From the NCBI RefSeq assembly GCF_014197795.1, contig NZ_JACIGI010000008.1, forward strand, positions 1-64,000: 64,000 bases of DNA, written 5' to 3'. The translations under genes were made by a program, and so were the position numbers. The notes beneath the pieces are model-generated. The model did not search any database, was not told where the DNA came from, and saw only the letters and a program-made list of their open reading frames with translations. This document shows positions 1 to 16,088 of the stretch, in pieces (the first letter of the stretch is position 1; the number at the start of each line of letters is the position of its first letter). This stretch comes from Roseospira goensis. GTDB taxonomy: Bacteria > Pseudomonadota > Alphaproteobacteria > Rhodospirillales > Rhodospirillaceae.

Positions 1-1
1 C

Positions 2-88
2 AAGGTCATCAAGCGGATGGCCTACGGCTTCCGCGATGACGCCTACTTCTTCCTCAAGATCCGCGCCGCCTTCCCCGGAATTCCGTGA
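2..88 (+). CDS. Transposase C-terminal end (cut by window edge)
   Basis: The last 28 codons of a reading frame that enters from outside the window and ends at the TGA at 86-88. The peptide contains RMAYGFRDDAYFFLKIRAAF, which resembles the C-terminal tail of DDE transposases of the ISL3 (IS204/IS1001/IS1165) group. This is recognition from memory, not a search. The stop codon lies inside a perfect inverted repeat (86-110), as expected where an insertion sequence ends. The catalytic residues lie outside the window, so integrity cannot be judged. It marks a mobile-element boundary immediately upstream of the sulfotransferase island. Confidence 0.6.
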   Translation, partial: KVIKRMAYGFRDDAYFFLKIRAAFPGIP

Positions 89-110
89 TGAACCTTTTTT
101 TGGTTCATCA
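86..110. repeat. Perfect 9-bp inverted repeat with 7-T loop at the transposase end
   Basis: TGATGAACC at 86-94, seven T residues at 95-101, then GGTTCATCA at 102-110. The left arm contains the transposase stop codon. It could be a terminator-like hairpin or part of the insertion sequence's terminal repeat. Only one end of the element is in view, so the two roles cannot be separated. Bases 111-324 hold no gene I can support. Confidence 0.55.
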
Positions 111-324
111 TGGATGTGCGGTCGGCGGTCCTCGTCCGCCTCCCCGTGCCCGCCAGGACTCGTCGCCCGTCCGGACGGCGTGCCCGGAACCGTGGCGCGG
201 CGGGCCATCCCGCGGCGGGGCGCCGGGCCGGGTCGCGGGGTTGCGCGCACGGATGGATCTGATATCTGTGACGCCTTGCCGCCGGTGCCGAGGGGCGGCG
301 CGCACATCAGGCAGGGAGGGCGCT

Positions 325-2622
325 GTGCAGCATGCGCTGGAGGACGACGCCGCCCAGGGCGCCGAGACGACCGACGTCCCGACGTTGCGCGACCGTCTGC
401 GGGCGGCGCAACAGGACATGCGCGTCGATGCCATGGCGGCGCTGCTGGCCGATGCGCCGGAACTGGAGTTTGCCGACGACGCCGGGTTGGTCGTCATCGC
501 GGCCGTGTGTCTGGTGCTGACCGGGCGGCCCGAGGACGGCGCGATGCTGATTGAGCGCTTGGGCGAGCACGAGTTCACCGATACCGCCGGGCTGGCGGAC
601 TACGGGCTGGCGCTGTCGATGGCGGGGCGGTTCGAGGCCGCCGAGCGGGTGCTTAAACGGGCGGCGGAGGCCGTTGATGCCGGTCCCGAAGTCTACGCTC
701 GGCTGGGGGCGGTGTATCTCTCGCTGGAGCGGCTGCACGAGGCCGGCGAGGCCATGGAAGCGGCCCTGGACCGGCGGCCGGACTGGCCCGAGTTGCTGTC
801 CAACCTGGGTGGGCTGCGGTTCCGGGAGGGGGACCACGCCGCCGCCGTTCGGCTGTACGACCGGGCGCTCGCCTTGCGGCCCGAGTTGCAGATGGCCCGG
901 GACATGCGCGGGAAGGCGCTCGTCGCCCTGGATCGGGGCGACGAACTGGTGGAGGAAGCCCGCGCGGCGCTGTCTCGGGACGTGGACTCGCCAGAGGCCT
1001 ATCTGCGTCTGGCGCTGGCCCAGCGGCAGGCGGAGCAATGGGCGCAGGCGGAGGCCACGCTGTCGGATGCCATCGAGCGATTCCCGGATCGGGAAGAGCT
1101 GCGGATGCTTCTGATCACGCTTCTCATGGATCGCAAGGAGCATCACCGCGCCGGCAATCTGTTGAAGCAGTGGGTGGAGGCGCGCGAGGAGCCGGACTGG
1201 ACCCGCCTGGCGCTGAACCGCGCCCGCATCGAGGCGCGGTTCCTGGAGGCGGCGGAGACCGACTTGGCCGCGCTGGCGGACACGCCGCTGGCGCAGGAGC
1301 CGCTGTACCCCGTCCTGAAGGCGAAGATTCTGATCGAGCGGGCGCGCGCGGACGAGGCCGCCGCACTCCTGGAGGAAACCGTGGACCGGTTCCCGGGCCA
1401 TGCCGAGGCCCGGGCGCTGTTGTCGCACACCCTCATGTCGCTGGGGCGACTGGACGAGGCTGCCGCTCAGGTCGAGGTCGGCGCCGCCTTGAACCCGATG
1501 GCGGTGCTTCAGCAGGTTGAGAACCGCGGCTACAAGGCGGAAGACCACGAGATCACCGCGATCGAGGGGCTGTTCGCGGCACCGTTCCTGGAACCGGACG
1601 CGCGCGCGCGGGTCGGGTTCACCCTGGCGACCGTGCGCGAGAAGCGCAAGGACTATGACGGGGCGTTCGACGCGCTGAGCAAGGCGAACGCGCTGGCGCG
1701 GCGGGCGCTCAAGTACGACTGGCGCGCACACCGGCGGTTCATCGACGACAGCCTGGACTGCTTCACGCCCGACCTGGTGGACCGGTTGGCGGGCCTGGGC
1801 GATCCGTCGGCGCGACCGATCTTCGTCGTCGGCATGCCGCGCTCCGGCACGACCCTGACCGAGCAGATCCTGTGCAGCCATCCGGAGGTCTACGGGGCCG
1901 GCGAACTGCCCTGGGTGACCAAGATTGCGGGCCTAATGCCCAAGGTGGTGCAGGGCGGTTTGGCCTACCCCAAGGCCATGGAAGCGATGACCGAACAGGC
2001 GCTGAAGAGCGCGGCGCGGTATTATCTGGACCGGATCGCAGAACAGAACGCGGACGCCGCACGCGTTGTGGACAAGATGCCGCATAACTTCGATCGTGTC
2101 GGGCTCATCGCGCTGATGTTCCCGAATGCGGCGATCATCCACCTGGACCGCGAGCCGCGCGACGTCGCCCTTTCCAACTACTACCAGAACTTCGCGCATG
2201 CCTACGGCCTCATGGGCTTCGCCTACGACCTGCGCGACATCGGCCATATGCTCAACGACCACGACCGCATCATGCGGCATTGGCACGACCTGTTCCCGGG
2301 CCGGATCTTCGAGCTGAACTACCAGAGGCTGGTGTCGGAGCCGGAGGACACCATCCGCGCTCTGCTCGACCACTGCGGGCTGTCGTGGGACGACCGCGTG
2401 CTGCGCTTCTACGAGACCCAGAGGCCGGTCCGCACGGCGTCGATCCGGCAGGTGCGCGAGGGCATCTACACCTCGTCGGCCGAGAAGTGGCGCCGCTACG
2501 AGGCGTTCCTGGGGCCGCTTGAAGAGGTGCTGGCGGAGGGCTATAAGCCCCTGGGCGAGGCCGACAGAGCGGGCCGCCTGCGGGATGTGATCGCGGGTCC
2601 GACCGGTCTGGTCGGCGGGTGA
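325..2622 (+). CDS. TPR-repeat sulfotransferase 1
   Basis: A 765-residue protein predicted to transfer sulfate from PAPS to an unknown acceptor. Residues 1 to about 450 are degenerate tetratricopeptide repeats, probably an acceptor-binding superhelix. The C-terminal third is a Sulfotransfer_3-type domain. Its 5'-phosphosulfate loop, VGMPRSGTTLTEQIL, begins near residue 500. A DKMPHNFD motif and a 3'-phosphate-binding segment (DREPRDVALSNYYQNF, about residue 607) follow. The GTG at 325 is chosen because GGGAGGG ends five bases upstream; the frame is open further 5' but without coding character. No signal peptide is visible, so action is probably cytoplasmic. It is the first gene of a four-gene operon in which two more proteins share this architecture. 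The acceptor cannot be read from sequence. Confidence 0.85.
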   Translation: MQHALEDDAAQGAETTDVPTLRDRLRAAQQDMRVDAMAALLADAPELEFADDAGLVVIAAVCLVLTGRPEDGAMLIERLGEHEFTDTAGLADYGLALSMAGRFEAAERVLKRAAEAVDAGPEVYARLGAVYLSLERLHEAGEAMEAALDRRPDWPELLSNLGGLRFREGDHAAAVRLYDRALALRPELQMARDMRGKALVALDRGDELVEEARAALSRDVDSPEAYLRLALAQRQAEQWAQAEATLSDAIERFPDREELRMLLITLLMDRKEHHRAGNLLKQWVEAREEPDWTRLALNRARIEARFLEAAETDLAALADTPLAQEPLYPVLKAKILIERARADEAAALLEETVDRFPGHAEARALLSHTLMSLGRLDEAAAQVEVGAALNPMAVLQQVENRGYKAEDHEITAIEGLFAAPFLEPDARARVGFTLATVREKRKDYDGAFDALSKANALARRALKYDWRAHRRFIDDSLDCFTPDLVDRLAGLGDPSARPIFVVGMPRSGTTLTEQILCSHPEVYGAGELPWVTKIAGLMPKVVQGGLAYPKAMEAMTEQALKSAARYYLDRIAEQNADAARVVDKMPHNFDRVGLIALMFPNAAIIHLDREPRDVALSNYYQNFAHAYGLMGFAYDLRDIGHMLNDHDRIMRHWHDLFPGRIFELNYQRLVSEPEDTIRALLDHCGLSWDDRVLRFYETQRPVRTASIRQVREGIYTSSAEKWRRYEAFLGPLEEVLAEGYKPLGEADRAGRLRDVIAGPTGLVGG

Positions 2623-2647
2623 CGCGGACGTGGCTGAGGGACGGATC

Positions 2648-4279
2648 ATGCAAAGCGAAGCGGCGGGCCTCGGGGGCCGGACCGGCGGCGAGGCGGACGC
2701 CAGCGACGGCGGGTTCTACGTCCAGGACGTGGACTTCCGATCCGGCGTGGTGGGTGTGCAATCGCCGATGTCGATGGCCCTGACCGCCGCCGTGGGTGGC
2801 GTCGTGCCGCCCGATCCCAGCGCCGCGTTCACTTACTGCGACCTGGGGTGCGGCGACGGGACCACCGTCAATGCCTTCGCCGAACTGTACCCGCACGCGA
2901 CGTTCGTCGGGATCGACTTCAACCCCGGCCACATCCGCACCGCGCAGGAGACGGCGGCGGCTTGCGGGCTCGACAATGTGCGGTTCGTGCAGGCGCGATT
3001 CAGCGACCTGGCGAACCTCGACGACCTGCCGGTGTTCGACTTCATCGGCATGAACGGCATCTACGCCTGGCTGGAAGAGGACGAGGCGCAGGCCGCGCGC
3101 CGCTTCGTGGGCGACCATCTGCGGGCCGGGGGCCTGTTCTACGTCGAGTACACCTGCCTGCCCGGCAAGGTCTCGGTACAGCCGCTGTGGAAACTGATCC
3201 AGACGCTGACGCCCCCACGCCCGGGCGAGGACAGCCGCGAGCGAGCGCGCCGCGGTCTCGATCTGACCGAGGCCCTGGCCAAGCGTGGGATGGCCTACCT
3301 GGCAGCGCATCGCCCGGCGGCCAACGGCGCGCAGGGCTATATCCGCGGCCGCAAGGTCGACGAGTACCGTGTGGATCATTTCGCTCACAATGCGATGGCC
3401 AGCGGGTTCCGGCCCCGCTACGTCACCGACATGTTCGCGGAGATGGCGTCGGTCGGGTTGACCTATGCCGCGCGGTCGGAACTGGCGCTGAATGACCTTG
3501 AGTTGTCGGTCCCGGCGGCTCAGGTGCCAACGTTCCAGGACTATCGGGACGATGTCGGAACGGTGGAGCTCCTCAAGGACTATATCCGCAATGAACAGCA
3601 GCGCCACGACGTGTTCGTCAAGGATGGCGCTCCGGATCGCGCCGCGGCCGACGCGTGGCTCGATGCCGTGCCGCGCCTGATGCTGCGCATGCCGGCCGAC
3701 GGTGTGACGCGCCACATCCAGGCGCCCGGAAACGCGCGGATCCCGCTCCGGGGCCCGGCCTACGATGCGCTGATCACGGCGGTCGACGCCAAGGCCCAGA
3801 CCGTCGCCGACGTTGCCGCCGCCAGCGGGCAGCCGGTCGAGCGGGTGCGGCGCGCGGCCGTCCGGCTGCTGGCCTCCCATCAGATGGTCGCTTGCCGGAC
3901 CGGCGCGATCGAGCCCGTGCCCGAGCCCGGGACGGTGGCGGGCCTGACCATCCCCGGGCGCATGAACCGGCGAACCCTGCGGCTGGCGGCGGAGCGCCTG
4001 CTCGGCAACCAGCTCGTCTCGCCGGTGACAGGCACCGCGAGCATCCCGGTCTCGCCGCTCGAAGCCGTCCTGCTGCAGGCCGTCGTGGACGTGGGGGTCG
4101 CGGACGCGCCCCCGGCGGCCCGGGACCGCTTGGCCAGCGAAACGCGGCCGCTGCCGGGACCCGGTGGTCAGAAGCCGGCCCGGGACATCACCGCCGACGA
4201 TCTGAACGAGGTCCTGGGCGCGATGCGTGGGCGCAAGCTCTATAACATGCTGCGTCTCGGGATTGTCGCGCCCGCGTGA
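2648..4279 (+). CDS. SAM-dependent methyltransferase with methyltransferase regulatory domain
   Basis: A 543-residue class I methyltransferase. The SAM-binding motif I (CDLGCGDGTT) lies near residue 63, followed by the acidic end of strand beta-2 (VGIDFNPGH). The remainder matches the architecture of proteins carrying a 'methyltransferase regulatory domain' after the Rossmann domain, with a long C-terminal part that may bind the substrate. ATG 2648 is preferred over GTG 2630 because GAGGGA lies at a proper distance from it. It sits 25 bp after sulfotransferase 1 and 33 bp before sulfotransferase 2, so co-transcription is very likely. That suggests the same acceptor, or a series of acceptors, is both methylated and sulfated. 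Substrate unknown. Confidence 0.8.
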   Translation: MQSEAAGLGGRTGGEADASDGGFYVQDVDFRSGVVGVQSPMSMALTAAVGGVVPPDPSAAFTYCDLGCGDGTTVNAFAELYPHATFVGIDFNPGHIRTAQETAAACGLDNVRFVQARFSDLANLDDLPVFDFIGMNGIYAWLEEDEAQAARRFVGDHLRAGGLFYVEYTCLPGKVSVQPLWKLIQTLTPPRPGEDSRERARRGLDLTEALAKRGMAYLAAHRPAANGAQGYIRGRKVDEYRVDHFAHNAMASGFRPRYVTDMFAEMASVGLTYAARSELALNDLELSVPAAQVPTFQDYRDDVGTVELLKDYIRNEQQRHDVFVKDGAPDRAAADAWLDAVPRLMLRMPADGVTRHIQAPGNARIPLRGPAYDALITAVDAKAQTVADVAAASGQPVERVRRAAVRLLASHQMVACRTGAIEPVPEPGTVAGLTIPGRMNRRTLRLAAERLLGNQLVSPVTGTASIPVSPLEAVLLQAVVDVGVADAPPAARDRLASETRPLPGPGGQKPARDITADDLNEVLGAMRGRKLYNMLRLGIVAPA

Positions 4280-4312
4280 CCCGGGCGCGTGCCGGCTGGC
4301 GGCGAGGACGTC

Positions 4313-6997
4313 ATGACGCAGCCCTCGAAGCAGGCAGCCGACGCCCTGAGGCAGGCCGTCGCGGCCCATCGCGCCGGACGCCACGCCGAAGCCGAGCGTG
4401 GCTACCGCGCGGTGCTGGCGGTTGCGGCGGACGATCCTATGGCGCATCACAATCTGGGCGTCCTTGCGGTCCAGACCGGCCGCGCGGCCGCAGGTCTGCC
4501 CCATCTCCAGAAGGCCGTCGAGGTCTCGCCCGACACGGGGCAGTACTGGGTCTCGCTGGCGGACGGGCTGTTGCGGTCCGGTCGGGTGGCGGACGCCGCC
4601 CGGGTTCTGGAGCAAGCCCTGTCGCGGGGCCTCGACCCGGTCGCGGCGCGGACCGTGCGGGCGCGCATCACGGCGGCGCGGACCGGAGAGGGCGACGGCG
4701 ACGCTGGGGCTGCGCGGCTGACGGCGGCGGCACGGGCTCTCCGCGAGGGGCGCTTCGCGCAGGCGGAGGCAGAAGCGCGCGCCGCGACGCGTTTGAAGCC
4801 CTCGGCGTCGGCCGGGTGGACCGTGCTGGCCGCCGCCCGGCGCGGGTTGGGCCGGTGGGACGGCGCGCTGGCCGCCGCGCGGCGCGCCGTGGCGCTCGCA
4901 CCGGGTGATGCCGCGATAGTTTCCAACCTGGGTGTGTTGGAGCTGGAGCGCGGACAGGCCGACCATGGTCTGGATCTGCTTTCGCGCGCCCGGCGGCTGG
5001 ATCCGGCGTACGCGGAGGCGGCCTTCAACCTGGGCAACGGTCTGGCGGCCGTGGGGCGGCCCGATGACGCCGCCGCCGCCTACCGCGCGGCCCTGGCCCT
5101 GCATCCGACGCATGCGCAGGCGCTGAACAATCTGGGAACCGCCCTGCAGGCGGCCGGACGGCCCGACGCGGCGGTGGCGGCGCTGACCTGGGCCGTGCGT
5201 GTGGCCCCGACCTATGCGGCGGCGCATTACAATCTCGCCCATGCCCTGCTTGATGCTGGGTGTCGGACGGGGGCCGCACGCGCGTTCGAGATGGCCTTGG
5301 TCCTGAGGCCGGATCTGGCGGAGGCCTGGAACAACCTTGCCAACCTGAGGCGGGACGACGGGCGTCTCGACGAGGCTATTGCCTGCTATCGGCACGCTGT
5401 TCATATCCGACCCACCTACGCCGAGGCGTTGACCAATCTCGGGGGGGCTCTGCGCCAAGACCCGGCCCAGGCCGAAGCCCTGTGCCGGCGCGCCCTGGCC
5501 CTGGCGCCGCGTCTGACCGAAGCCCGCATCACCCTTGGCGCGGTGCTGGCCGAGAAACGGTGCTTTGAGGACGCCACGATCTGTTACATGCAGGCGGCCA
5601 TGTTGCGGCCGGCCGATGCCGGCGCATACGTCGGTCTGGCTCATGCGCTCAGCGAATGCGGCCTCAGCCGGCGCGCGGCGGCCATCGCCACCCGGGCGAT
5701 CCGGCTTGACCCGCTGGCGGCGGAAGGGCACCGCGTGCATGCCGCCGTGTTGCGTGAAGAGGGGCAGGTCACGGCGGCTGTCGGGGCAGCTCGCCGGGCC
5801 GCGACGCTGGCGCCCGACGTGCCGGAGGTGTGGGTAACGCTGGCGCTGTGTCTTCAGACGGCGGGCGACCTCGCCGCTGCCGAGATGGCGTTTCGCCGCG
5901 CGGTGGCGCTGGTGCCGGGTCATCCGCGAGGGACTCACGGCCTGTACATGCTGGCCCGGGCCGGCCCGACGGAATCCGCCTTCGGCCTGATTCGGACGCG
6001 GCTCGACGACCCGGCCACGCCGCCGTCCGATCGTGTGCTGCTCCACTTCGCGCTTGGCAAGATGAACGCGGACGTCGGGGCGCATGACACGGCCTTTGCG
6101 CACTATCTCGACGGGCACCGGTGGCGCGCCGCCGTGCGGGGCCACACCTACCAGGCCGCCGCACAGGAGGCACGTTTTCTGTTCCGGCGCAGCCTCTTCA
6201 CACCGGCGTATTTTCGGGCGCGGGCGCAGTGGGGTGACCCGTCACGGCGCCCGATCTTCATCGTCGGCATGCCGCGATCGGGAACGACCCTCACGGAGCA
6301 GGTGCTGGCGAGCCATTCACGTGTGTACGGGGCCGGCGAGCTGCGCGCCCTGAATAACATCGCGGCCGACCTGTTCGACCAGCAGACCCTCGCAGCGGAT
6401 GCGGCTGATCCGCGGGCCGACTTCGGGGACCGGATGCGGACGGCTGCCCGACGGTATCTCGACTACGTCGGGTTTGTGTCCGGAGGATCGGAGCGTGTGA
6501 CAGACAAGATGCCGCACAACTTCGAGCTGCTGTGGTTGGTGGCGTTGCTGTTTCCCCATGCCACGGTGCTGCACTGCGTCCGGTCGCCTGTTGATACGTG
6601 TCTGTCCTGCTTCTTCCAGAACTTCACGAATGCCCACACTTACACCGATGATCTTTCAAGTCTCGGGCATCATTACAGACTCTATCAGGCATATATGCGT
6701 TTGTGGAAGCAGGTCCTCCCCATGCGTATTCATGACGTCGTTTATGAGGACCTTGTGAGCGACCCCAAGGCGGCGATTTCTCGTCTTCTGGATGACTGTC
6801 AACTCTCGTTCGAGCCGCAATGCCTCGACTTCCACCGCACGGATCGGCCGGTCAAGACCGCCAGCGTGGCCCAGGTGCGCAAGCGGGTGTACACGACGTC
6901 CGTCGAGACGTGGCGCCGGTATGAGGCGCATTTAGGACCGTTGCTTCAGGCGCTGGAGACCCCGTTGGCCTTTGAGCGGGCGTCGGCGAATTCGTGA
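4313..6997 (+). CDS. TPR-repeat sulfotransferase 2
   Basis: An 894-residue protein, the largest of the three. Residues 1 to about 600 are many tandem TPR units, with recurring A-x-NNLG and P-x-Y-A-x-A-L-x-NLG patterns similar to those in O-GlcNAc-transferase-type proteins. The sulfotransferase domain begins near residue 646 with IVGMPRSGTTLTEQVLASH, then TDKMPHNFE and VRSPVDTCLSCFFQNF (about residue 755). ATG 4313 follows a GGCGAGGA ribosome-binding site; a GTG at 4289 is an alternative. It is more similar to sulfotransferase 3 than to sulfotransferase 1: both carry CVRxPVDTCLSCFFQ and the same N-terminal A-x-HRAGRH start. This suggests tandem duplication. Acceptor unknown. Confidence 0.86.
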   Translation: MTQPSKQAADALRQAVAAHRAGRHAEAERGYRAVLAVAADDPMAHHNLGVLAVQTGRAAAGLPHLQKAVEVSPDTGQYWVSLADGLLRSGRVADAARVLEQALSRGLDPVAARTVRARITAARTGEGDGDAGAARLTAAARALREGRFAQAEAEARAATRLKPSASAGWTVLAAARRGLGRWDGALAAARRAVALAPGDAAIVSNLGVLELERGQADHGLDLLSRARRLDPAYAEAAFNLGNGLAAVGRPDDAAAAYRAALALHPTHAQALNNLGTALQAAGRPDAAVAALTWAVRVAPTYAAAHYNLAHALLDAGCRTGAARAFEMALVLRPDLAEAWNNLANLRRDDGRLDEAIACYRHAVHIRPTYAEALTNLGGALRQDPAQAEALCRRALALAPRLTEARITLGAVLAEKRCFEDATICYMQAAMLRPADAGAYVGLAHALSECGLSRRAAAIATRAIRLDPLAAEGHRVHAAVLREEGQVTAAVGAARRAATLAPDVPEVWVTLALCLQTAGDLAAAEMAFRRAVALVPGHPRGTHGLYMLARAGPTESAFGLIRTRLDDPATPPSDRVLLHFALGKMNADVGAHDTAFAHYLDGHRWRAAVRGHTYQAAAQEARFLFRRSLFTPAYFRARAQWGDPSRRPIFIVGMPRSGTTLTEQVLASHSRVYGAGELRALNNIAADLFDQQTLAADAADPRADFGDRMRTAARRYLDYVGFVSGGSERVTDKMPHNFELLWLVALLFPHATVLHCVRSPVDTCLSCFFQNFTNAHTYTDDLSSLGHHYRLYQAYMRLWKQVLPMRIHDVVYEDLVSDPKAAISRLLDDCQLSFEPQCLDFHRTDRPVKTASVAQVRKRVYTTSVETWRRYEAHLGPLLQALETPLAFERASANS

Positions 6998-7031
6998 GCG
7001 GCGCTTAACCATGCTCGCTGGAGGAGTGCCC

Positions 7032-9191
7032 GTGAGGACTCCACAGACCCTTTTCCGCGCGGCCCTGGCCCACCATCGGGCTGGTCGCCATGGTGCCGCG
7101 GCGCGCGCCTACCGGGCCGTGCTGACGCTGTCGCCGGCCGACGCCAAGGCGCTCCACAATCTGGGCTTGCTGATAGTCCGGGAGGGCAGTGTAACCGCCG
7201 GCCTCGCGTGCCTGCGGCGCGCCTTGTGCCTGCATCCCGGGGCCGAGCTGTTTCGCCGCTCGTGGTGCGAGGGGTTGCTGGCGTCTGGACAACCCGATGC
7301 GGCGCTGGCTGCGGTCGCGACCGCACGGGCGCGTGGGCTCGACGGCCCCGCGTGGCAGGATCTGGAGCAGCGGGCGCGCGATGCCGCCGGTCGCTATCAG
7401 GGCCAGGCGATCCCGGCGGACCGCCTGGCGACGCTGCGCCGTCTCCTGGAGGAAGGGCGCTGTCGCGCGGTCGTCGCGGCGGCTCAGGAGGTGACGGCTC
7501 GCTGGCCGGCCGATCCGCGGGGCTGGACCCTGCTCGGCGCCGGGTTGCGGACGCAGGGCAAGGCGGAGGCGGCCGCAACGGCCTTCCGGGCTGCGGTGGC
7601 CCTGGAGCCGGCCGCCGCTGTGGGATATGCGAACCTTGGGGCGGTGCTGCGGGACGTTCCGCAGCTCCATCAGGCGTTGTCCAGTCTTGATCGGGCGCTT
7701 CGTATCGCCCCCCATGAGGTGCAGGCCTGGCTCAACAAGGGGATCTGCCTGACCGCGCTGGACGATGCGACCGCGGCGGTCGCGGCCTTGCGTGTGGTTT
7801 TGATCCAATGTCCCGCGTGGGCCGACGCCTGGATGCATTACGGGGTTGCCCTGGGCATGCTCGGTCGTCCGCGGGCGGCGGAGAACGCCTTCCGCCGCGC
7901 GCTGCATGCGGCGCCGGAGGCCGACGCGCCGCGCCGCAATCTAACCGTGCTGTTGCGCGCCGAAGGACGCTCCGTCGAGGCGGCGGCGGTGGACCGCCAC
8001 ACCCTGTGTCGCCGGCCATCGGCGGCCGCGGCCTGGGTCAGCCTGGGGATCACGGCTGCCGACGCGGGCCGGCTTGACGCGGCCGAGGTGGCATGGCGGC
8101 GCGCGGTGCGGCTGGATCCCGAAGACGCGGAAGCGTGGTACCGTCTCTCCACGCTGAGCGGCGGGTTGGCGGACGACTGGGCGGCCGGCGCGATCCTCGA
8201 CCGGTTGACAGAAGAGGCCGGCCGGACTTCGCACGATCGCATGCTGGCCCATTTCGCCCTGGCGCGACGCCTCGACAGCCTGGACCAACCGGAGGAGGCC
8301 ATTGGGCATCTGAAATCGGCCCACCGGATCCGGGCGACCATGCGGGGACACCCTTATGATCGTGCCGCCGCCGAGGCGCGGCTGGATCATCTGCGGCGCA
8401 CCGTCACGCGCGCCTTTGTGGCGGCACTGGCTCCGTCGGGCGACCCGTCACAGACGCCGATCCTGATCGTCGGCATGCCGCGGTCGGGGACAACGCTGGT
8501 GGAACAGATCCTCGCCAGCCATTCCTGGGTCTTCGGCGCCGGCGAGCTTCCGGCCTTGGGTCGGTTGGCGCGGCACCCCGTGATCGCCGGCGTCCTGGAC
8601 GCGGCGGCGCAAGGAGCCGGACCGGAAGGCCGATCGCGGATCAACTGGGCGGCCCGTTCGTACCTGGACACCCTTAAGACCGTATCAGGTGGGTCCGCGC
8701 GGGTGACGGACAAGATGCCGCACAACTACGAGCACCTGTGGCTCGCGGCGCTGCTGATCCCGAACGCGACGATCATCAACTGCGTTCGCGATCCCGTGGA
8801 TACCTGCCTGTCGTGTTTCTTCCAACCGTTCGGATTTGGCCACGCCTACGCGGATGACCTTGCTGACCTCGGCCATCAGTACCGCCTTTATCAGGACTAC
8901 ATGCGGCTTTGGACCCGTGTCCTGCCCATCCCCATCCATACCGTCGTCTACGAGGATCTCGTGCGGGAGCCCGAGGTCCAAATCCCGGCCCTTCTGGATG
9001 CCTGTGGCCTCCCGTTCGAACCGGGATGCCTCTCATTCCACACTACGGATCGACCGATCCGGACGGCCAGCATGTCGCAGGTCCGGCGACGCGTGTACAC
9101 GTCCTCTGTGGCGAAGTGGCATCGGTACGAGGCCCATCTTGGCCCACTCCTGCGCGCCCTTGAGGCGCCTGCGCACGGACCGGGAATCTGA
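7032..9191 (+). CDS. TPR-repeat sulfotransferase 3
   Basis: A 719-residue paralogue of the preceding gene. Its N-terminal TPR array is shorter (about 400 residues). The sulfotransferase domain begins near residue 476 with LIVGMPRSGTTLVEQILASH, then DKMPHNYEHLWL and the 3'-phosphate-binding VRDPVDTCLSCFFQPF near residue 584. GTG 7032 is chosen because GGAGGAG ends five bases upstream and because the N-terminus then aligns with that of sulfotransferase 2. ATG 7011 is the alternative. Only 34 bp separate it from the previous stop. It is the last gene of the operon; two long hairpins (9404-9543) downstream could terminate transcription. Confidence 0.86.
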   Translation: MRTPQTLFRAALAHHRAGRHGAAARAYRAVLTLSPADAKALHNLGLLIVREGSVTAGLACLRRALCLHPGAELFRRSWCEGLLASGQPDAALAAVATARARGLDGPAWQDLEQRARDAAGRYQGQAIPADRLATLRRLLEEGRCRAVVAAAQEVTARWPADPRGWTLLGAGLRTQGKAEAAATAFRAAVALEPAAAVGYANLGAVLRDVPQLHQALSSLDRALRIAPHEVQAWLNKGICLTALDDATAAVAALRVVLIQCPAWADAWMHYGVALGMLGRPRAAENAFRRALHAAPEADAPRRNLTVLLRAEGRSVEAAAVDRHTLCRRPSAAAAWVSLGITAADAGRLDAAEVAWRRAVRLDPEDAEAWYRLSTLSGGLADDWAAGAILDRLTEEAGRTSHDRMLAHFALARRLDSLDQPEEAIGHLKSAHRIRATMRGHPYDRAAAEARLDHLRRTVTRAFVAALAPSGDPSQTPILIVGMPRSGTTLVEQILASHSWVFGAGELPALGRLARHPVIAGVLDAAAQGAGPEGRSRINWAARSYLDTLKTVSGGSARVTDKMPHNYEHLWLAALLIPNATIINCVRDPVDTCLSCFFQPFGFGHAYADDLADLGHQYRLYQDYMRLWTRVLPIPIHTVVYEDLVREPEVQIPALLDACGLPFEPGCLSFHTTDRPIRTASMSQVRRRVYTSSVAKWHRYEAHLGPLLRALEAPAHGPGI

Positions 9192-9403
9192 CGCCCGGGA
9201 GCGGCGGCATGCCGGCCTGGCCGCAAGGTCTGCGCCGTCGGCGGAGGGACGCCTCGCCTGTGTTCCGCCGATTGCGTTCGCCGGCATCTCCCCGAGGGTT
9301 CCCGGATGGCAACCCTGGTCCGCAACACCAAGCGTGAGGGGCACCCATCGTTGACGCCCGGGGGCGACATCGGGAGCCGACTCGAAACGAGAGCCTACGG
9401 GCC

Positions 9404-9467
9404 TACAGCCGATTGCGACAAACCGGACTCGCGGCACGATTTCGGTTTGTAGCGATAATCAGCTGTA
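9404..9467. repeat. Dispersed long hairpin, GGACTCG-core type
   Basis: An imperfect palindrome with outer arms TACAGCcGATTgcGACAAACCG and its complement (spelled here with mismatches in lower case) around the core GGACTCGCGGCACGATT. The same core, with different or decayed arms, recurs at 18710-18769, 35675-35712, 63196-63248 and 63249-63307. It is non-coding and lies in a convergent gap. The form resembles REP/BIME-like elements, but I do not recognise a named family. Confidence 0.75.
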
Positions 9468-9479
9468 AAATCAATACTG

Positions 9480-9543
9480 TAGAGCCGATTCACGTTCGAA
9501 ATCGGACCGCATCTGCGGTTCCGATTTCGAACAATCGGCTCTA
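9480..9543. repeat. Dispersed long hairpin, GCCGATTCACG-arm type
   Basis: A near-perfect 64-base palindrome. The left arm is AGAGCCGATT then CACG, with inner stem TTCGAAATCGGA; the right arm restores TCCGATTTCGAA and AATCGGCTCT around the loop CCGCATCTGCGG. The arm GCCGATTCACG recurs at 63324-63334 and, inverted, at the 35.7-kb copy. Truncated halves occur at 52800-52889 and 63163-63194. It is probably able to act as a terminator. Confidence 0.75.
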
Positions 9544-9564
9544 TGTCACGCCCGGACTCCCGGG

Positions 9565-10704
9565 TTATCGGTTCGCGCTTTCCTGGGCACCGAGCAAGGT
9601 ATTGGCGGTCTCCGCCGGCGAGGTGGCCTCCGCCCCTGCGGCCAGGAACGAGAAGTCACCGCGCGTGATGCGGCTGGCGTTCTCCGCGAGCGTGCGAAGT
9701 GCGATCCGTTCAGGGGACTTCCAGTATGGGTAATTGTTGCCCAAGTTCGCGGTCGACATCTGGTCGGCGAGGCCGGACAGCGCGCTTGCATCCAGCCCGA
9801 AGTCGGCGATGGCCCGCGCCACTTCACTGGAGTCTCGACCCGCGTAGCGGAGAATGCGGTTGTTGGCGTCGATCAGATAGAGTCCGCCGCCGTGGGCGTA
9901 GGTTTCGTTCGGTGTGAGGGTGGTGGTCTCCAGCCAGGCAAAGTTTCCCGAGCGGGCGGCGAATCTTGCCGGGGGCGGCGCGTCCTCGTCGTCTGCGGCG
10001 GCGTCACCCTGCTGGGCTTCGCCCTCGGCATCAAGACGCGCCAGGGCTTCGGCTTCCAGCGCGTCCGGGGCGGTGCCCGCGATGCTATGATCGCCGCTGG
10101 CGTACATGGCGCCCAGCGCCGCACGCGCGGTCGCCAATGGGTCGTCGGACTCCAGGATCGCCGCCCAGTCGCGCAGGTCCTTGTGGGTGCCGACGTTGTT
10201 GTACAGGACCGAGACACGCTCCATGACGGAGGCATCAATGCCCTTCGCCTCCAGGGCCGCCTGGAATTCCGCCATGTTGGGGCGTTCGGCGGCGAACAGG
10301 CGGTCGCCCAGCGCCGACGGGTCGAGAAGGTAGGCGGACCCGTCGATGGCCGGGGGGGCGTCGTCTTCGGATCGCACAGGCGTCTCGTCTTCGGAGGCCT
10401 CGGAGGCCTCGGCGGCCTCGGAGGCCGTGTCCACGCCATGGTCGTCGCGTGCGTCGGTGTCCGCGTCCTTCAGGGTGGCGGCAGGCGCCGGGGCCGGTGG
10501 CGCGTCTGTCGGGGGGGCGGTGGCCGGGGCTGCTGTCGGCGTTTCAGAGGCACCGGGAGCATCGGTGCGGACGCTGTCGGCTGCGCGGACACGGCCAAGC
10601 GCTTCGGCGAACAGATCGCCTGCAGAGCGGGTTTGTGTGGTCTGACGCTGCTTTTGAGCGTACTGGGCCGCGGCTTGAGGGTCATGGACACTCGCGACGG
10701 ACAT
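9565..10704 (-). CDS. Uncharacterised protein with Ala/Pro/Asp-rich N-terminal half
   Basis: A 379-residue protein I do not recognise. Residues 1 to about 110 are low complexity, rich in Ala, Pro, Thr and Asp. The middle and C-terminal parts look globular, with helices around EFQAALEAKGIDASVMERVS and a more distinctive segment GGGLYLIDANNRILRYAG. No signal peptide or membrane segment is visible. ATG 10704 is chosen because coding character begins there and GAGAGGGG lies upstream; the open frame continues 5' without it. The gene is divergent from the SapC gene across 170 bp, so the two may share a control region. By position it belongs to the surface island; its function is unknown. Confidence 0.65.
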   Translation of the reverse strand: MSVASVHDPQAAAQYAQKQRQTTQTRSAGDLFAEALGRVRAADSVRTDAPGASETPTAAPATAPPTDAPPAPAPAATLKDADTDARDDHGVDTASEAAEASEASEDETPVRSEDDAPPAIDGSAYLLDPSALGDRLFAAERPNMAEFQAALEAKGIDASVMERVSVLYNNVGTHKDLRDWAAILESDDPLATARAALGAMYASGDHSIAGTAPDALEAEALARLDAEGEAQQGDAAADDEDAPPPARFAARSGNFAWLETTTLTPNETYAHGGGLYLIDANNRILRYAGRDSSEVARAIADFGLDASALSGLADQMSTANLGNNYPYWKSPERIALRTLAENASRITRGDFSFLAAGAEATSPAETANTLLGAQESANR

Positions 10705-10874
10705 GGAACGGGCCCCTCTCAACGGACTGTCTGACGAACGGCAGAAACTGCGTGCCTTTGCAGAAGCAACCGCTGTGCCATCCAGTGTGGCCGGAAACCT
10801 TGACAGGAGGCCACGGGTGTGGTCCTCACGGCGGGTAGGCTCCGTTCCGTCGACGAAGAAGAGGCGTTGAGTCC

Positions 10875-11648
10875 GTGTACACCCCATTGCAGCCGTCCAA
10901 TCCCTCCCATCGTCTCTATACGCCTGTGGCCGGCTATCCGGCCGCGCGCGGAAGACCCATCGCTGTTCTGTCGCGCGGCGAGCTGAGACGGGCCGTGCCG
11001 GCTCTGCCGGTGGCCTTTCGGCGCGAGGAGGGCGGGGTGACCATGGTGGCATTGATGGGCCTGACCCTGGATCGCAACTTTTTTGTGCAGGATGGTGGCC
11101 GCTGGCTCGGTTCCTACGTTCCCGCGGCATTTCGCGGCTATCCTTTTGGGCTGGCAAGCGGACCCGATGGAAAGTACGTCGTGTGCGTGGACGAAAACAG
11201 CGGCGCCCTGCGCGATGGCCCCGGCGCCAAGGCGCTGTTCGAGGACGACGGCCAGCCCTCCGGCTTCCTCAAGCAGGTCATCAATTTCCTGCAGCAGGTG
11301 CAGGCCGACCAGCAGGCGACGCGCGCCGCCGGCGCGGTGCTGGACCGTCACGGCCTTCTCGAGGACTGGCCTATCGCCGTGACGGCGGCAGAACAGAGGA
11401 TTCCGCTGAACGGGTTTCTTCGCGTCAGCGAGACGGCACTGGCCGCCCTCGATCCGGCCGTGCTGGCCGAGGTTCGGGACAGTGGAGCGCTTGACCTGGC
11501 ATACGGGCAAATCTACGCCTCGAACAACCTTTCTGTTCTAGGCCGTCTGGCCGAAGCGCATGCCAAGGCTGCAGAGGCCGAACGGGCGCGGTTGCCGAGT
11601 GCCGAGGAGATGTTTGCGCCCGAGGACATTTCCTTCAACTTCGACTGA
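10875..11648 (+). CDS. SapC family protein (S-layer-associated type)
   Basis: A 257-residue protein matching the SapC family. The characteristic central stretch is seen: LDRNFFVQDGGRWLGSYVPA followed by FRGYPFGL, then a conserved helix-rich C-terminal half. In Campylobacter fetus, SapC belongs to the paracrystalline surface-layer locus. In alphaproteobacteria the family is common and its biochemical role is unresolved. There is no signal peptide. The start is GTG 10875, with GAAGAGG about ten bases upstream. It lies between the sulfotransferase operon and a glycosyltransferase/RTX pair, which supports a role in building or modifying surface proteins. That is inference from context. Confidence 0.75.
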   Translation: MYTPLQPSNPSHRLYTPVAGYPAARGRPIAVLSRGELRRAVPALPVAFRREEGGVTMVALMGLTLDRNFFVQDGGRWLGSYVPAAFRGYPFGLASGPDGKYVVCVDENSGALRDGPGAKALFEDDGQPSGFLKQVINFLQQVQADQQATRAAGAVLDRHGLLEDWPIAVTAAEQRIPLNGFLRVSETALAALDPAVLAEVRDSGALDLAYGQIYASNNLSVLGRLAEAHAKAAEAERARLPSAEEMFAPEDISFNFD

Positions 11649-11805
11649 CGCCGGTCGGGCTTCAACGGGATCGCGCGCCCATGCCTCTGTCGCCGCCCCA
11701 GCCTCGAATACCGGTGTGTGCTGGCCGCGATGCGAGGTTGGGCGGGGAGATCACGCGTGGCTTTAGCGCTGGCGCGGGCGCATTTCCCGTGAGGGCCGGC
11801 GCGCC

Positions 11806-13068
11806 ATGAAGGTCCTGTTCGTCCACCAGAACTACCCCGGCCAGTACAAGCACCTGGCACCGGCCCTGGCGGCCCGGCCCGGCATCGACGTTTCCGCCCT
11901 GCACATGCGCGCCGATCTGCCGGACAGGCGCGACGGCGTGCGCCTGCACCGGGTGCAGCCTGCGCGCGGGTCGACCCCCGGTGTTCATCCTTGGGTGGCC
12001 GACCTGGAGACAAAGACCATTCGTGGCGAGGCGACGTTTCGAGCGGGGATTAAGCTGCGCCAGCAGGGCTACGCGCCCGATGTGATCGTGGGCCACCCCG
12101 GCTGGGGCGAGATGCTGTTCCTGAAGGATGTCTGGCCCACCGCGGCGGTCGGGATTTACAGTGAATTCTACTATAGGGCCCAGAACGGGGACGTGGGCTT
12201 TGACCCTGAGTTCGCAAGCAACGATCCTGCCACGGTCTGCCGGGTGCGGCTGAAAAATCTCACCTTCGAGCTGAGCATGGCGCGGGCGACGGCCGGCTTG
12301 GCGCCGACGCAGTGGCAGGCCGAGACCTTCCCGCCCGCTTTGCGCGACCGCATCGCCGTCATCCACGACGGCATCGACACCGACCAGGTGGCGCCCAACC
12401 CCACGGTGTCGATGACCCTGAACCGGTCGCTGACCCTGACGCCGAAGGATGAGGTCGTCACCTTCGTCAACCGCAACCTGGAGCCCTATCGAGGCTACCA
12501 CATCTTCATGCGGGCGCTGCCGGCGCTGCTGCGCAACCGGCCGAAGGCGCGGGTGCTGATCGTGGGTGGCGATGGGGTGAGCTACGGCGCCCGCCCGCCC
12601 GACGGCACCTGGAAGGCGCGGTTCATCGAAGAGGTGCGCCCCGGGATGCGTGACGCCGACTGGGCGCGGGTGCACTTTCTGGGCAACGTCTCCTACACGC
12701 ACTTCCTGGGGCTGCTGCAGTTGTCCACGGTGCACGTCTACCTGACGTACCCGTTCGTGCTGTCATGGTCGCTGCTGGAGGCCATGAGCGCCGGCTGCGC
12801 CATCGTCGCCAGCGACACGGCACCCCTGCGCGAGGCCATCCGCGACGACGAGACCGGGGTTCTGGTCGACTTTTTCGACGTCGACGGCCTGGCCGACCGG
12901 GTCACGCACCTGCTGGCCGACGCGCCCCGCCGGCGGCGGCTCGGGCAGGCCGCGCGGGCGTTTGCGCGCGCGACCTACGACCTCAAGACGGTGTGCCTGC
13001 CGCGCCAGATCGCCTGGGTGGAGGCGCTGGCGCGGGGCGAGGCGGGATCGGCCCTCAGATCAGACTGA
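11806..13068 (+). CDS. Glycosyltransferase family 4 protein
   Basis: A 420-residue retaining GT-B glycosyltransferase. The N-terminal Rossmann half begins [19 protein letters not shown]. The C-terminal half carries the family 4 nucleotide-sugar signature [13 protein letters not shown], followed by PLREAI. No membrane segments are visible, so it probably acts on the cytoplasmic face. The nucleotide sugar and acceptor cannot be read. Its last 14 bases overlap the convergent RTX gene, so both stop regions are shared. With the sulfotransferases and methyltransferase it is a likely contributor to a decorated surface glycan or glycoprotein. Confidence 0.85.
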
Positions 13069-14779
13069 AGTCGCCGGCGGTCAGGTCGACGGTGAAGGTG
13101 CCGATCAGTTGCAGGCCGCTGGGCGGGGCGTCGCCTCCGTCGGCGGTGTCGTCCCCGCCGCCTGCGGTGTCGTCGCCGCCCCCGGCGGTATCGTCGCCGC
13201 CGCCTGCGGTGTCATCCCCGCCCCCGGCGGTATCGTCCCCGCCATCGGCCGTATCGTCGCCGCCATCGGCCGTATCGTCGCCGCCGTCGGCGGTGTCGTC
13301 GCCGACCGGGACGTCGACATCGTAGTACAGCTCCCCGGTGTCGCTGCGGAACACCAGCACCTGGCCGTCCTCGGCGTCGGCGGCGTCCATCTCGGTGGCG
13401 TTGGCGGCGACCACGAACACGTCGGCGATGCTGCCGGTGATCTGGGTGAACACCGACGCCGCCAGGCCCACGGAATCGCTGCCGACGCCGTAGTCCTCGA
13501 CCGTGTCCGCGTTCTCGGTCCCGAAGGCGTCGAAGACGAACCGGTCATCGCCGGAGCCGCCCGCCAGGGTGTCGGTGCCGGCGCCGCCGCCGACGGTGTC
13601 GTTGCCGAGGCCGCCGCTGACGGAATCGGCGCCGTCGCCGCCGTCCAGGCTGTCGTCGCCCTGCTCGCCGGTCAGCAGGTCGTCCCCGGCGCCGCCGCGC
13701 AGGGTGTCGTTGTCGGTGCCGCCCGAGAGGGTGTCGTTGTCGGCGTTGCCGTCCAGGCTGTCGTCGCCGGTATTGCCGGACAGGGAGTCCGCGCCGGTGC
13801 CGCCCAGCAGGGTATCGTTGTCGAGCCCCCCCAGCAGGGTGTCGGCCTCGCCGCCCCCCAGGATCAGGTCATCGCCGTCGAGGCCGTCCAGGCTGTCCGC
13901 GCCGCCGTCGCCGGACAGGGTGTCGTTGCCGTCACCGCCGCGCAGGGTGTCGGCGCCGAAGCCGCCTTCCATCTCGTCGGCGCCGGTGCCGCCCGACAGA
14001 TCGTCGTCGCCGTCGCCGCCACTCAGCACGTCGTCGCCGGCATCCCCGGTCAGGGTGTCGTTGCCGGTGCCGGCGTCCAGCAGGTCGTCGCCGTCGCCGC
14101 CGATCAGGCTGTCGGTGCCGGCGGTGCCGATCAGGGTGTCGTTGCCGACGGCGCCGTCGAGGAAGTCGGCGCCGGTGGTGCCGGTCAGGGCGTCGTCTTC
14201 GGCCGTGCCGGTCTGGCGCGTGTCGAAGGTGGTGTCGGTGGCGCCGCTTTCGGCGTCGATGGCCTGCTTGGCGGCCACCACGGTGTTGAGGTCCTCCGTG
14301 ACCGTGGACAGCACCGCCTGGAGGTCGGCCAGGGTCTCGGCCGGTTCCGAGACCTGGGTGCTGTAGTAGCTCGCCACCTCGACCTTGTTGCGGAACTGGG
14401 TCGCCGCCGGCTCGAAGGCGGCATCGACGGTCTCGCTGTTGAACAGGTAGTCGGCCGCAGCCAGGATCACCGCGCCCACCGAGGCGCCGGCGTTCAGGTT
14501 GGCGATAAAGGCGGCCTTGGCCTCGGTGAAAGCGTCCGAGCCTTCCTGGAAACCGAGGTTGCCGAGCGCGATCGCCAGCTTCTCGTCGTCCGTGGTGGCG
14601 GCGGTGTACTGGCCCTGGAACGCCTCGCTTGCCACCAGCGAGTCCGCGAGCTGGAGCAGGGTGCCGCCGTCCTCGATGAAGGAGACGAACTCGAAGAAGT
14701 TGGTCGCCCCGGGCGCGGCGTTGAACATCGCGACCGTCATGGCGACGATGTTGTCGCGCGTCTCCTGGGGCACAGCCAT
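13055..14779 (-). CDS. RTX calcium-binding secreted protein with acidic heptad-repeat region
   Basis: A 574-residue protein. Residues 1-190 are a helical N-terminal domain ([18 protein letters not shown] onward) reminiscent of the N-termini of alphaproteobacterial S-layer RTX proteins. Residues about 195-440 are many nonapeptide GGxGxDxLx repeats that bind calcium as a beta-roll. Near the C-terminus come eight perfect-to-near-perfect [14 protein letters not shown] heptads. The last residues, [13 protein letters not shown], fit an uncleaved type I secretion signal. There is no Sec signal peptide. No type I ABC exporter is in the window. It is a plausible substrate for the neighbouring glycosyl-, sulfo- or methyltransferases, by context only. 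Confidence 0.85.
13137..13304. repeat. Eight tandem 21-bp repeats inside the RTX gene
   Basis: Eight in-frame 21-bp units encode GDDTADG (four copies) or GDDTAGG (four copies). Third positions vary while the amino acids barely change, so the array has been kept coding. Such arrays change length by slippage without shifting frame. The product is a strongly acidic, flexible, possibly calcium-binding linker before the C-terminal secretion signal. Confidence 0.85.
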
Positions 14780-14924
14780 GGATCGAAGCCTCCGAGCGGT
14801 ATTCAGCCGTCGCGCGCCCGCCGCGCGGGTGCGCTCCCTGGTCGGGAGTATGCGCGGGCGGGCTTAAGCGATGGTTACCCCCAGGACGGGACGGGGGGCG
14901 GGGCGAGGGTGGGGCGGCGCACCG

Positions 14925-16088
14925 TCAGCCATCGTCATAGGCGCCGCGGCGGCCGATCTGGACATCGCGATGGACCCACACGCTCATCAGCAGGCCGAAG
15001 GCCAGCATCAGGGTCATCATGGCGGTGCCGCCGTAGCTGACCAGCGGCAGCGGCACCCCCACCACCGGGATCAGGCCCATCACCATGGCGACGTTGATGA
15101 ACACATAGAGGAAGAAGGTGAACGTCACCCCGATGGCGACCAGCCGGCCGAAATGGTTGCGGGCGCGCAGGGCGATGGCCAGTCCGTAGGTCAGCACCAG
15201 CACGTACAGCAGCAGCAGGCCCATGCCGGCCAGCATGCCGAACTCCTCGGCCAGCATCACGAAGATGAAATCGGTCTGCTTCTCGGGCAGGAAGTTCAGG
15301 TGGCTCTGGGTGCCCTCCAGGAAGCCCTTGCCCGTCAGGCCGCCCGATCCCAGGGCGATCTTGGACTGCAGGATGTGGTAGCCGGCCCCCAGCGGGTCAC
15401 GCTCGGGGTTGATGAACGTGAGGACGCGCTGTTTCTGATAATCGTGCAGCACCTGCCACGCCACCGGAATGGCGGCCAGGCCGAGGGCGACCACGAGTCC
15501 GAACATCCACAGCCGCACCCCGGCGACGAAGAACAACACCCCGGCCCCGGCCAGCATCATCAGGGCCGTGCCCAGGTCCGGCTGCTTCAGCACCAGCGCC
15601 ACCGGAACCAGCACCAGCACCGTCGGCAGGATGAGATACAGCGGCCGCCCGGTATCGGCCAGGTCGGCGCCGTGGAAGAACCGCGCCAGCGCCAGCACCA
15701 GCGTCACCTTCATCAGCTCGGAGGGCTGGAGCTGGAACACGCCGAGGTCGATCCAGCGTTGCGCCCCCATGCCGATGGTGCCGCGGACCTCCACGGCCAC
15801 CAGCAGCACCAGGGCCAGGGCGTAGAGCCAATAGGCGTAGCGCATCCATTGTCGGATATCGACCATGGCCACCACCAGAAGCAGCGCCAGCCCGACGCTG
15901 AACCGGGCGATGTGACGCGATGCCCACGGGTCCATGTTGCCGTTGGCGGCGGAATAGAGCATGGCCACGCCGATGCCGGCGAGGGCGCCGATCAGCAGCA
16001 GCAGCGACCAGCTCACCTGCCACAGCTTCTCGCCCAGGGTCATCTCGCCGCGGCGCAGCCGCGCCGTCATCAGGCCGTCCCCGATCAT
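14925..16088 (-). CDS. rodA: Rod-shape SEDS peptidoglycan polymerase RodA
   Basis: A 387-residue polytopic membrane protein of the SEDS family. It polymerises lipid II glycan strands during cell elongation, together with PBP2. About ten hydrophobic segments are visible. Conserved features include W-I-D-L-G near residue 115, the loop GFLEGTQSHLNFLPEKQTDF, and the family signature VPLPLVSYGGTAMM near the end. Its ATG overlaps the mrdA stop (ATGA at 16085-16088), indicating translational coupling. It is the last gene of the mreB-mreC-mreD-mrdA-rodA operon. Length and order are normal for the family. Confidence 0.96.
   Translation of the reverse strand: MIGDGLMTARLRRGEMTLGEKLWQVSWSLLLLIGALAGIGVAMLYSAANGNMDPWASRHIARFSVGLALLLVVAMVDIRQWMRYAYWLYALALVLLVAVEVRGTIGMGAQRWIDLGVFQLQPSELMKVTLVLALARFFHGADLADTGRPLYLILPTVLVLVPVALVLKQPDLGTALMMLAGAGVLFFVAGVRLWMFGLVVALGLAAIPVAWQVLHDYQKQRVLTFINPERDPLGAGYHILQSKIALGSGGLTGKGFLEGTQSHLNFLPEKQTDFIFVMLAEEFGMLAGMGLLLLYVLVLTYGLAIALRARNHFGRLVAIGVTFTFFLYVFINVAMVMGLIPVVGVPLPLVSYGGTAMMTLMLAFGLLMSVWVHRDVQIGRRGAYDDG

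Follow-up and report, generated by a model that had tools for sequence, protein, structure and literature searches.

We analysed a 64,000-nucleotide stretch of the Roseospira goensis genome (RefSeq assembly GCF_014197795.1, contig NZ_JACIGI010000008.1, positions 1 to 64,000; the whole stretch is called the window below), the left part of which carries a co-directional block of four genes, 325-9191 on the plus strand, encoding three sulfotransferases with tetratricopeptide repeats (TPRs) and one methyltransferase, which may modify exported surface proteins. The order of the genes is ST1-MT-ST2-ST3. ST1 (325-2622; 765 aa; GTG start in a frame open from position 85) joins a TPR array to a sulfotransferase domain of the tyrosylprotein sulfotransferase (TPST) kind; MT (2648-4279) is an S-adenosylmethionine (SAM) methyltransferase with a MethyTransf_Reg middle domain; ST2 (4313-6997) has a long TPR array in front of its sulfotransferase domain; and ST3 (7005-9191) has the same two parts. 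An initial annotation of the window had described three paralogous TPR-sulfotransferases interleaved with a MethyTransf_Reg methyltransferase, and both the Pfam domains and the coordinates confirm this. The intergenic gaps within the block are about 25, 33 and 7 bases, with start codons uncertain; given the shared strand and the short gaps, it is reasonable to speak of one operon for these four genes. The same annotation had let the operon be followed by genes for SapC, a GT4 glycosyltransferase and an RTX protein. These genes are present downstream; the putative operon is limited to ST1-MT-ST2-ST3, and SapC starts about 1.7 kb beyond the block.

In all three sulfotransferases, a Sulfotransfer_3 domain scoring above the Pfam cut-off lies behind the TPR array (162 bits for ST1, 147 for ST2 and 139 for ST3). 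In the PDB, the ST1 catalytic domain has its strongest matches in protein-tyrosine sulfotransferases 2 and 1 (E-values of 2e-12 to 1e-9), presumably the human enzymes. The next match is CurM (1e-4), which we take to be a sulfotransferase of a polyketide pathway; NodProtNoeE, presumably a sugar sulfotransferase, is a weak NCBIfam match, far below the cut-off. Using an alignment of 126 sulfotransferase domains, we found the P-loop Arg in 123 of 123 filled rows, a Glu in 121 of 123 and a Lys in 124 of 126 (Glu and Lys being aligned with those of TPST), a second-motif Arg in all 126 rows and a second-motif Ser in 112 of 126. All of these catalysis-type residues are kept in ST1, ST2 and ST3. We take the conserved Glu, Lys and Ser positions to be the catalytic ones of TPST. 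A catalytic role of some of those TPST positions is stated in an excerpt of PMC6637879. The catalytic domains of ST2 and ST3 are 62-63% identical to each other, and none of the three proteins has a Pfam match to Glyco_transf_41, the GT41 catalytic domain of O-GlcNAc transferase (OGT). The structure model of ST1 (mean predicted local distance difference test score, pLDDT, of 78, built from a five-row alignment) shows the TPRs forming a long superhelix, with an alpha/beta domain after it, and its top 10 Foldseek matches are all OGT or SPINDLY chains.

Pfam assigns MethyTransf_Reg and SAM methyltransferase domains to MT. A single-sequence PDB search returned protein lysine methyltransferase 1 (5dnk) at 1.9e-13 and protein lysine methyltransferase 2 at 4e-11; with a three-row profile, the E-values improved to 3.8e-25 and 3.4e-19, the match covering the SAM and middle domains (positions 23-318). 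We take the matched chains to be Rickettsia PKMT1 and PKMT2. Judged by these searches, MT is, among solved structures, most similar to outer-membrane-protein lysine methyltransferases. As for a C-terminal domain like that of PKMT1, the profile match stops near position 318 of 536, and the structure model of MT (pLDDT 52) was too poor to use and was set aside. A pattern-limited scan of a collection of 84,980 species recovered relatives with 49% identity in a gammaproteobacterial metagenome-assembled genome (L008) and 46% identity in Rhodovibrio sodomensis (L009). Matches at 1e-50 or better occur in 6 of 385 genomes of the class, the genome of the window included, and in 1 of 398 genomes of the phylum, which is again its own, the best other match being 35% identical. 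The five sampled members of the same genus contain only distant relatives of MT (best 1e-41).

Both of the closer relatives of MT come after a TPR-sulfotransferase gene. In L008, the TPR-sulfotransferase is immediately preceded by the C-terminal part of an RTX gene, and glycosyltransferase genes are nearby. In L009, the sulfotransferase-methyltransferase pair is located between a flagellin gene and fliW-, flgL- and flgK-like genes (names assigned by eye). The surface-protein gene is upstream of the sulfotransferase in both loci, on the side where, in the window, the contig ends shortly before ST1. A frameshift divides the Rhodovibrio sodomensis TPR-sulfotransferase (L009:1758-3783) in the contig as deposited.

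The idea that TPR-sulfotransferases neighbour surface genes was formed on a discovery set of 41 loci in which, by eye, porins, coiled-coil porin-like proteins, FadL-like proteins, TonB receptors, autotransporters and flagellins directly adjoin many of these enzymes (surface genes at 15 of the 80 places at offset 1). After that, a validation set of 60 alphaproteobacterial loci was fetched, with their neighbours unseen, from the class-wide search table (E-values down to 3e-41). These loci come from 42 genomes, 6 of which had also given a discovery locus; at least nine rows within the E-value range of the set were left out (G501:C197, G420:C147, G420:C39, G420:C79, G045:C36, G304:C16, G305:C8, G550:C1 and G353:C17). 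Surface classes were defined by seven profiles, some of whose seeds came from validation loci, and an RTX rule, the same profiles being used at all offsets. Surface genes account for 23 of 120 genes at offset 1, compared to 3 of 108 at offset 2 and 4 of 328 at offsets of 3 or more (offset 1 versus 3 or more: Fisher odds 19, p 8e-11), and 23 of the 60 loci have a surface gene at offset 1. When genes were shuffled within loci, the mean was 7.8, and none of 200,000 shuffles reached 23. The linked surface genes have a median gap of 96 bases and are on the strand of the sulfotransferase in 20 of 23 cases, versus 61 of 100 for the other neighbours (p 0.026).

Pfam, which involves no seeds chosen by us, was applied as well. 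The 115 direct neighbours contain 12 TonB barrels, 6 matches to Autotransporter and 5 to Porin_4; among 99 distal genes, none of these three families is found within the best 25 of 172 families, i.e., each occurs at most once. It should be noted that this distal control does contain other envelope genes (LptE 2, EipA 1). Proteins longer than 700 aa were scanned over their last 450 residues only, in the direct and distal sets alike. The Pfam counts cover 57 of the 60 validation loci (L146, L148 and L179 were left out), and the offset counts cover all 60, the frames of the sulfotransferase genes in those three loci being forced by the match to the sulfotransferase profile. A few further observations were made. 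In several lineages (L060, L121 and L166), a YggS-like gene is near the TPR-sulfotransferase, which in L121 and L166 has a porin gene on its other side (by eye), and Ala_racemase_N occurs 3 times among the Pfam-scanned direct neighbours. In addition, a short sulfotransferase without TPRs directly adjoins a 2416-aa DUF4347-type-like surface protein (L062:644-8786, G000:C3; by eye). A Sulfotransfer_3 match also came up in Caulobacter vibrioides.

Outside the class, comparable neighbours were found. We drew 239 genomes from the phylum, and a match at 1e-25 is present in 98 of them. The plan covered the best locus of each of the first 40 out-of-class genomes, of which 26 loci were obtained; neighbour classes were assigned by hand, and one direct neighbour with masked bases (L220) was left out. 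An adhesin-type protein or a TonB receptor is at offset 1 in 9 of the 26 loci. The large adhesin-type neighbours (L210, L211, L212, L214, L217 and L223) carry Calx-beta, cadherin, LapA, Big, SWM or FecR-type domains, and the TonB receptors (L222, L232 and L235) are three TonB-barrel members by Pfam. Two further loci (L213 and L215) have a TolC-type outer-membrane protein at offset 1, and in L210 and L223 an ABC transporter is on the other side of the sulfotransferase. Among 87 control genes at offsets of 3 or more, Calx-beta, TonB-barrel and OEP are absent from the best 25 of 182 families, and HlyD (3) and ABC (4) are present. The context is a different one in five genomes of one family (L219, L221, L224, L225 and L226), in which the TPR-sulfotransferase comes after a shared gene of 306-316 aa, which we take, by eye, to be HPr-kinase-like, and some of these loci have a small upstream gene.

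Two trees place the window enzymes among these relatives. In a 63-row tree (26 out-of-class rows and 37 hand-picked from the earlier 126), ST1, the L008 enzyme and eight hand-labelled enzymes of type I secretion system (T1SS) or adhesin loci form one clade with support of 100/98, the eight alone having 99/96. For each of the nine members other than ST1, the surrounding locus is of the adhesin, RTX or type I secretion kind. With regard to a T1SS substrate gene beside ST1 itself, the RTX gene of the window is distant and on the opposite strand, and the left side is the contig end. ST2 and ST3 form a pair of their own (100/99) elsewhere in the tree. In the tree of all 126 domains, the surface label clusters (28 changes, compared to a shuffled mean of 43.6), and supported branches, the bootstrap being not fully settled, require 14 or more changes of the "none" label, 5 of autotransporters and at least 3 each of TonB receptors, Porin_4-type porins and flagellins. 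From the clustering and the forced changes together, it follows that the surface association is partly inherited and has been gained or lost repeatedly, with unrelated surface families.

On the basis of the domains, the catalysis-type positions, the recurrent adjacency and the clade of ST1, we propose, with a probability of about 0.62, that ST1, ST2 and ST3 are cytosolic protein O-sulfotransferases of exported surface proteins, using 3'-phosphoadenosine 5'-phosphosulfate (PAPS), and that MT methylates the same or a similar protein. The C-terminal domain, being of the tyrosylprotein sulfotransferase type, would transfer sulfate from PAPS, and the N-terminal TPR superhelix would hold an extended, not yet exported polypeptide, as in OGT. 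ST1 would load an unfolded T1SS substrate along its TPR groove, so that sulfation would precede export, an order of steps like that of RaxST acting on RaxX before export by RaxAB. Its acceptor would most likely be a type I-secreted adhesin or an RTX protein. For MT, the most likely substrate would be lysines in that surface protein or in one like it, by analogy with PKMT1/2, which methylate OmpB, and KmtA, which methylates AtaA. Three ideas of the initial annotation receive support by inference here: a protein acceptor, from the best PDB matches, which are protein sulfotransferases and protein lysine methyltransferases; an OGT-like use of the TPRs, from the Foldseek matches; and a surface protein as the target, from the neighbourhood statistics and the ST1 clade. 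The surface-modification island as originally drawn is wider than the evidence; the functional unit comprises the sulfotransferase(s) and MT here, and a sulfotransferase plus its surface-protein partner elsewhere.

A number of observations weigh against this proposal. At offset 1, a recognised surface gene is absent from 37 of the 60 validation loci, and neither a surface nor a T1SS gene was recognised there in 15 of the 26 out-of-class loci; moreover, validation loci from one genome are not independent. The Foldseek matches of the ST1 model have low TM-scores (0.19-0.29 by query in the top 10), and sulfotransferase chains are absent among the best 50. ST2 and ST3 lie outside the T1SS/adhesin clade. 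The codon usage of ST1 and MT is at the border of the ordinary range and gives no clear sign of a recent acquisition of these two genes. The RTX gene of the window is 3.9 kb from ST3, on the opposite strand, and its product has only 4 Lys. Acid-flanked Tyr was examined as an acceptor signature, with no enrichment seen: in the linked proteins, it makes up 0 to 16% of Tyr by class, versus a background of 12%, flagellins standing apart with 2 of 4 Tyr; moreover, the L009 flagellin, as read, contains no Tyr. Since acid-flanked Tyr is not enriched and this flagellin lacks Tyr altogether, Ser/Thr residues or a glycan bound to the protein may serve as the acceptor. Finally, relatives of MT at about 30% identity adjoin a thioredoxin gene, not surface genes, in 21 of 29 loci (by eye), which weakens MethyTransf_Reg as a general marker of surface proteins. 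Two loci favour such a link (both by eye): in L200, a relative has T1SS-like genes on one side and a protein of at least 2957 aa on the other, and in L202, RTX proteins are within four genes on both sides. A further MethyTransf_Reg relative directly adjoins a type VI secretion-like cluster (L205:8407-9969, G000:C14; by eye).

Other explanations of the same data were weighed. The sulfated acceptor could be a surface glycan (lipopolysaccharide, capsule, or a glycan on a surface protein), with the TPRs holding a partner enzyme instead of the acceptor; the glycosyltransferase genes near the sulfotransferases in the window and in L008, the near absence of Tyr from the linked flagellins and the fact that some sulfotransferases act on sugars (compare the NodProtNoeE match, far under its cut-off) are in line with it. 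We nevertheless consider it unlikely, because surface-protein genes of unrelated families make up many of the direct neighbours and the best PDB matches are protein sulfotransferases. The pairing of ST2 with ST3 outside the T1SS/adhesin clade raises a different question, namely, whether these two enzymes make a small sulfated molecule, with only ST1, or none of the three, acting on a protein. CurM, the weaker PDB match and presumably an enzyme of a polyketide pathway, would suit such a role; ST2 and ST3, however, share the TPR architecture and the gene block of ST1, and no biosynthetic genes were seen, by eye, in positions 1-18,000 of the window, so that we regard this as distinctly unlikely.

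It could also be that the adjacency reflects an old conserved gene order or the co-regulation of envelope genes, with no enzyme-substrate relation. The clustering of labels on the 126-domain tree is what inheritance would give, and some TPR-sulfotransferases keep other recurrent neighbours, such as the YggS-like gene. Against this, unrelated surface families recur beside different sulfotransferase clades, as the forced label changes indicate, and the distal control holds LptE and EipA, yet none of the three surface families is among the families listed for it; an explanation by gene order or co-regulation thus appears very unlikely to us.

If ST1-3 modify exported surface proteins, the RTX protein (13055-14779, minus strand; 574 aa; HemolysinCabind in 8 stretches) is the nearest T1SS-type candidate acceptor in the window and a plausible target. 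The initial annotation had suggested it as a possible one; the local RTX gene is not adjacent and, in addition to the few Lys, its product has 7 Tyr. Its ordinary codon usage also counts against it, together with the distance, the strand and the 4 Lys. The 190-aa N-terminal domain of this protein is common to four proteins of the genome, the other three (L186:4910-6439, L187:9789-13991 and L188:7407-11669) being 37-47% identical to it. No match to the domain was found in 59 other genomes of the family, six members of the same genus being among those checked, and it has no Pfam or PDB relative of note. One further copy of the domain adjoins polysaccharide-export-like and glycosyltransferase genes (glycosyltransferase and PIG-L domains). 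The three other proteins with this domain, or a gene beyond the contig end, are equally possible as acceptors. Elsewhere in the genome, a 276-aa protein (L189:8070-8900; G000:C11, about 53070-53900) has about ten tandem repeats of the RYDDD type and, after them, a region that weakly matches the RTX N-terminal domain. With Tyr set among consecutive Asp residues, the protein has the look of a tailor-made acceptor for tyrosine sulfation; no sulfotransferase gene was detected in its vicinity.

SapC (10875-11648, plus strand) has a Pfam match of 174 bits, scanned from 10998; the profile match begins at 10923. The annotation had made it part of the surface-modification system, which the linkage survey does not support. 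SapC is present in 55 of 226 genomes of the order, and a sulfotransferase match was found in 31 of the 55 family genomes searched, 23 of which also have SapC; the two are within 20 kb of each other in 1 of these 23, namely, in the genome of the window, although split draft contigs can hide some. SapC was thus dropped as a conserved partner of the sulfotransferases and is probably an independent neighbour, outside the functional unit. Campylobacter SapC has a role in the S-layer; the protein of the window is like it in its Pfam match and unlike it in having no conserved link to sulfotransferases in the family. The GT4 glycosyltransferase gene (11806-13068, plus strand; Glyco_trans_4_3 and Glycos_transf_1) overlaps at its end by 14 bases with the RTX gene on the opposite strand. 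Beyond the RTX gene, a rodA-like gene has an FTSW_RODA match (Pfam), with PBP2-like and mreB-like neighbours named by eye. Between ST3 and SapC, an open frame on the minus strand (9565-10710) has protein-like text and weak codon bias, and may or may not be a gene; it has no Pfam or NCBIfam match.

Codon usage differs along the locus. ST2, ST3 and SapC have codon-usage distances of 0.22, 0.22 and 0.20, and third-position GC contents of 0.80, 0.80 and 0.76, compared to 0.06-0.15 and 0.91-0.95 in nine other window genes, several of which had trained the measure; this fits acquisition of these three genes from elsewhere. ST1, MT and GT4 are at the edge of the ordinary range (0.14 each; third-position GC 0.88-0.89), and codon usage says little on the acquisition of ST1 and MT. 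The RTX gene (0.07; 0.94) gives no sign of acquisition. The window opens with the end of a repeated insertion sequence, at which the assembly breaks off: contig C8 begins with base 1 of the window, in a draft genome of 4.18 Mb and 81 contigs, and the first 100 bases have 23 matches across the genome, a minimum of 14 being at contig ends. The transposase annotated there is, by eye, a C-terminal fragment on the plus strand (1-88), and only about 88 bases of it are present at the contig end.

A broader generalisation is possible, with odds a little short of even: Gram-negative bacteria may have a widespread, modular system of protein O-sulfation, in which TPR-sulfotransferases would have diversified, clade by clade, together with porins, TonB receptors, autotransporters, flagellins and type I adhesins, every clade adding sulfate to its partner protein in the cytosol, ahead of export; in the window and in two further lineages, a lysine methyltransferase would join in, giving a dual modification of one surface protein. 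If so, a charge-changing modification has been overlooked in work on phage adsorption, nutrient uptake, adhesion and biofilms that concerns the porins, TonB receptors and autotransporters of many Alphaproteobacteria. Many TPR-sulfotransferase genes would then name their probable substrate next door, and a shift of +80 Da would be a direct test, which includes existing proteomic data. To our knowledge, bacterial protein sulfation is known only from RaxST and RaxX, and among the matches listed in the open-access literature (PMC), there was no paper on TPR-sulfotransferases and surface proteins.

Several known systems resemble parts of the one proposed here. TPST acts in the Golgi and has no TPRs; TPST1 and TPST2 are the best PDB matches of the ST1 catalytic domain and share the conserved P-loop, Glu, Lys, Arg and Ser positions, whereas the enzymes of the window have TPRs and are presumably cytosolic. 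OGT and SPINDLY likewise place a TPR superhelix before a protein-modifying catalytic domain; ST1-3 differ from them in catalytic fold and donor. MT matches protein lysine methyltransferases 1 and 2 best; only two relatives of it at 45% identity or more were found, both in the same type of cassette, and its activity is predicted. Excerpts of PMC11784438 describe methylation of OmpB by Rickettsia PKMT1/2 and of the trimeric autotransporter AtaA by the partially similar KmtA of Acinetobacter, and an excerpt of PMC6637879 identifies 3AP1 as human TPST2. The precedent for sulfation ahead of type I export is the RaxST/RaxX/RaxAB system of Xanthomonas, in which, according to the same excerpt of PMC6637879, a bacterial tyrosylprotein sulfotransferase, RaxST, sulfates a type I substrate, RaxX, before its export by RaxAB. 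In contrast to that system, whose substrate is a peptide of 60 residues, the predicted substrates here are large adhesin, RTX or outer-membrane proteins, and the enzyme has a TPR array.

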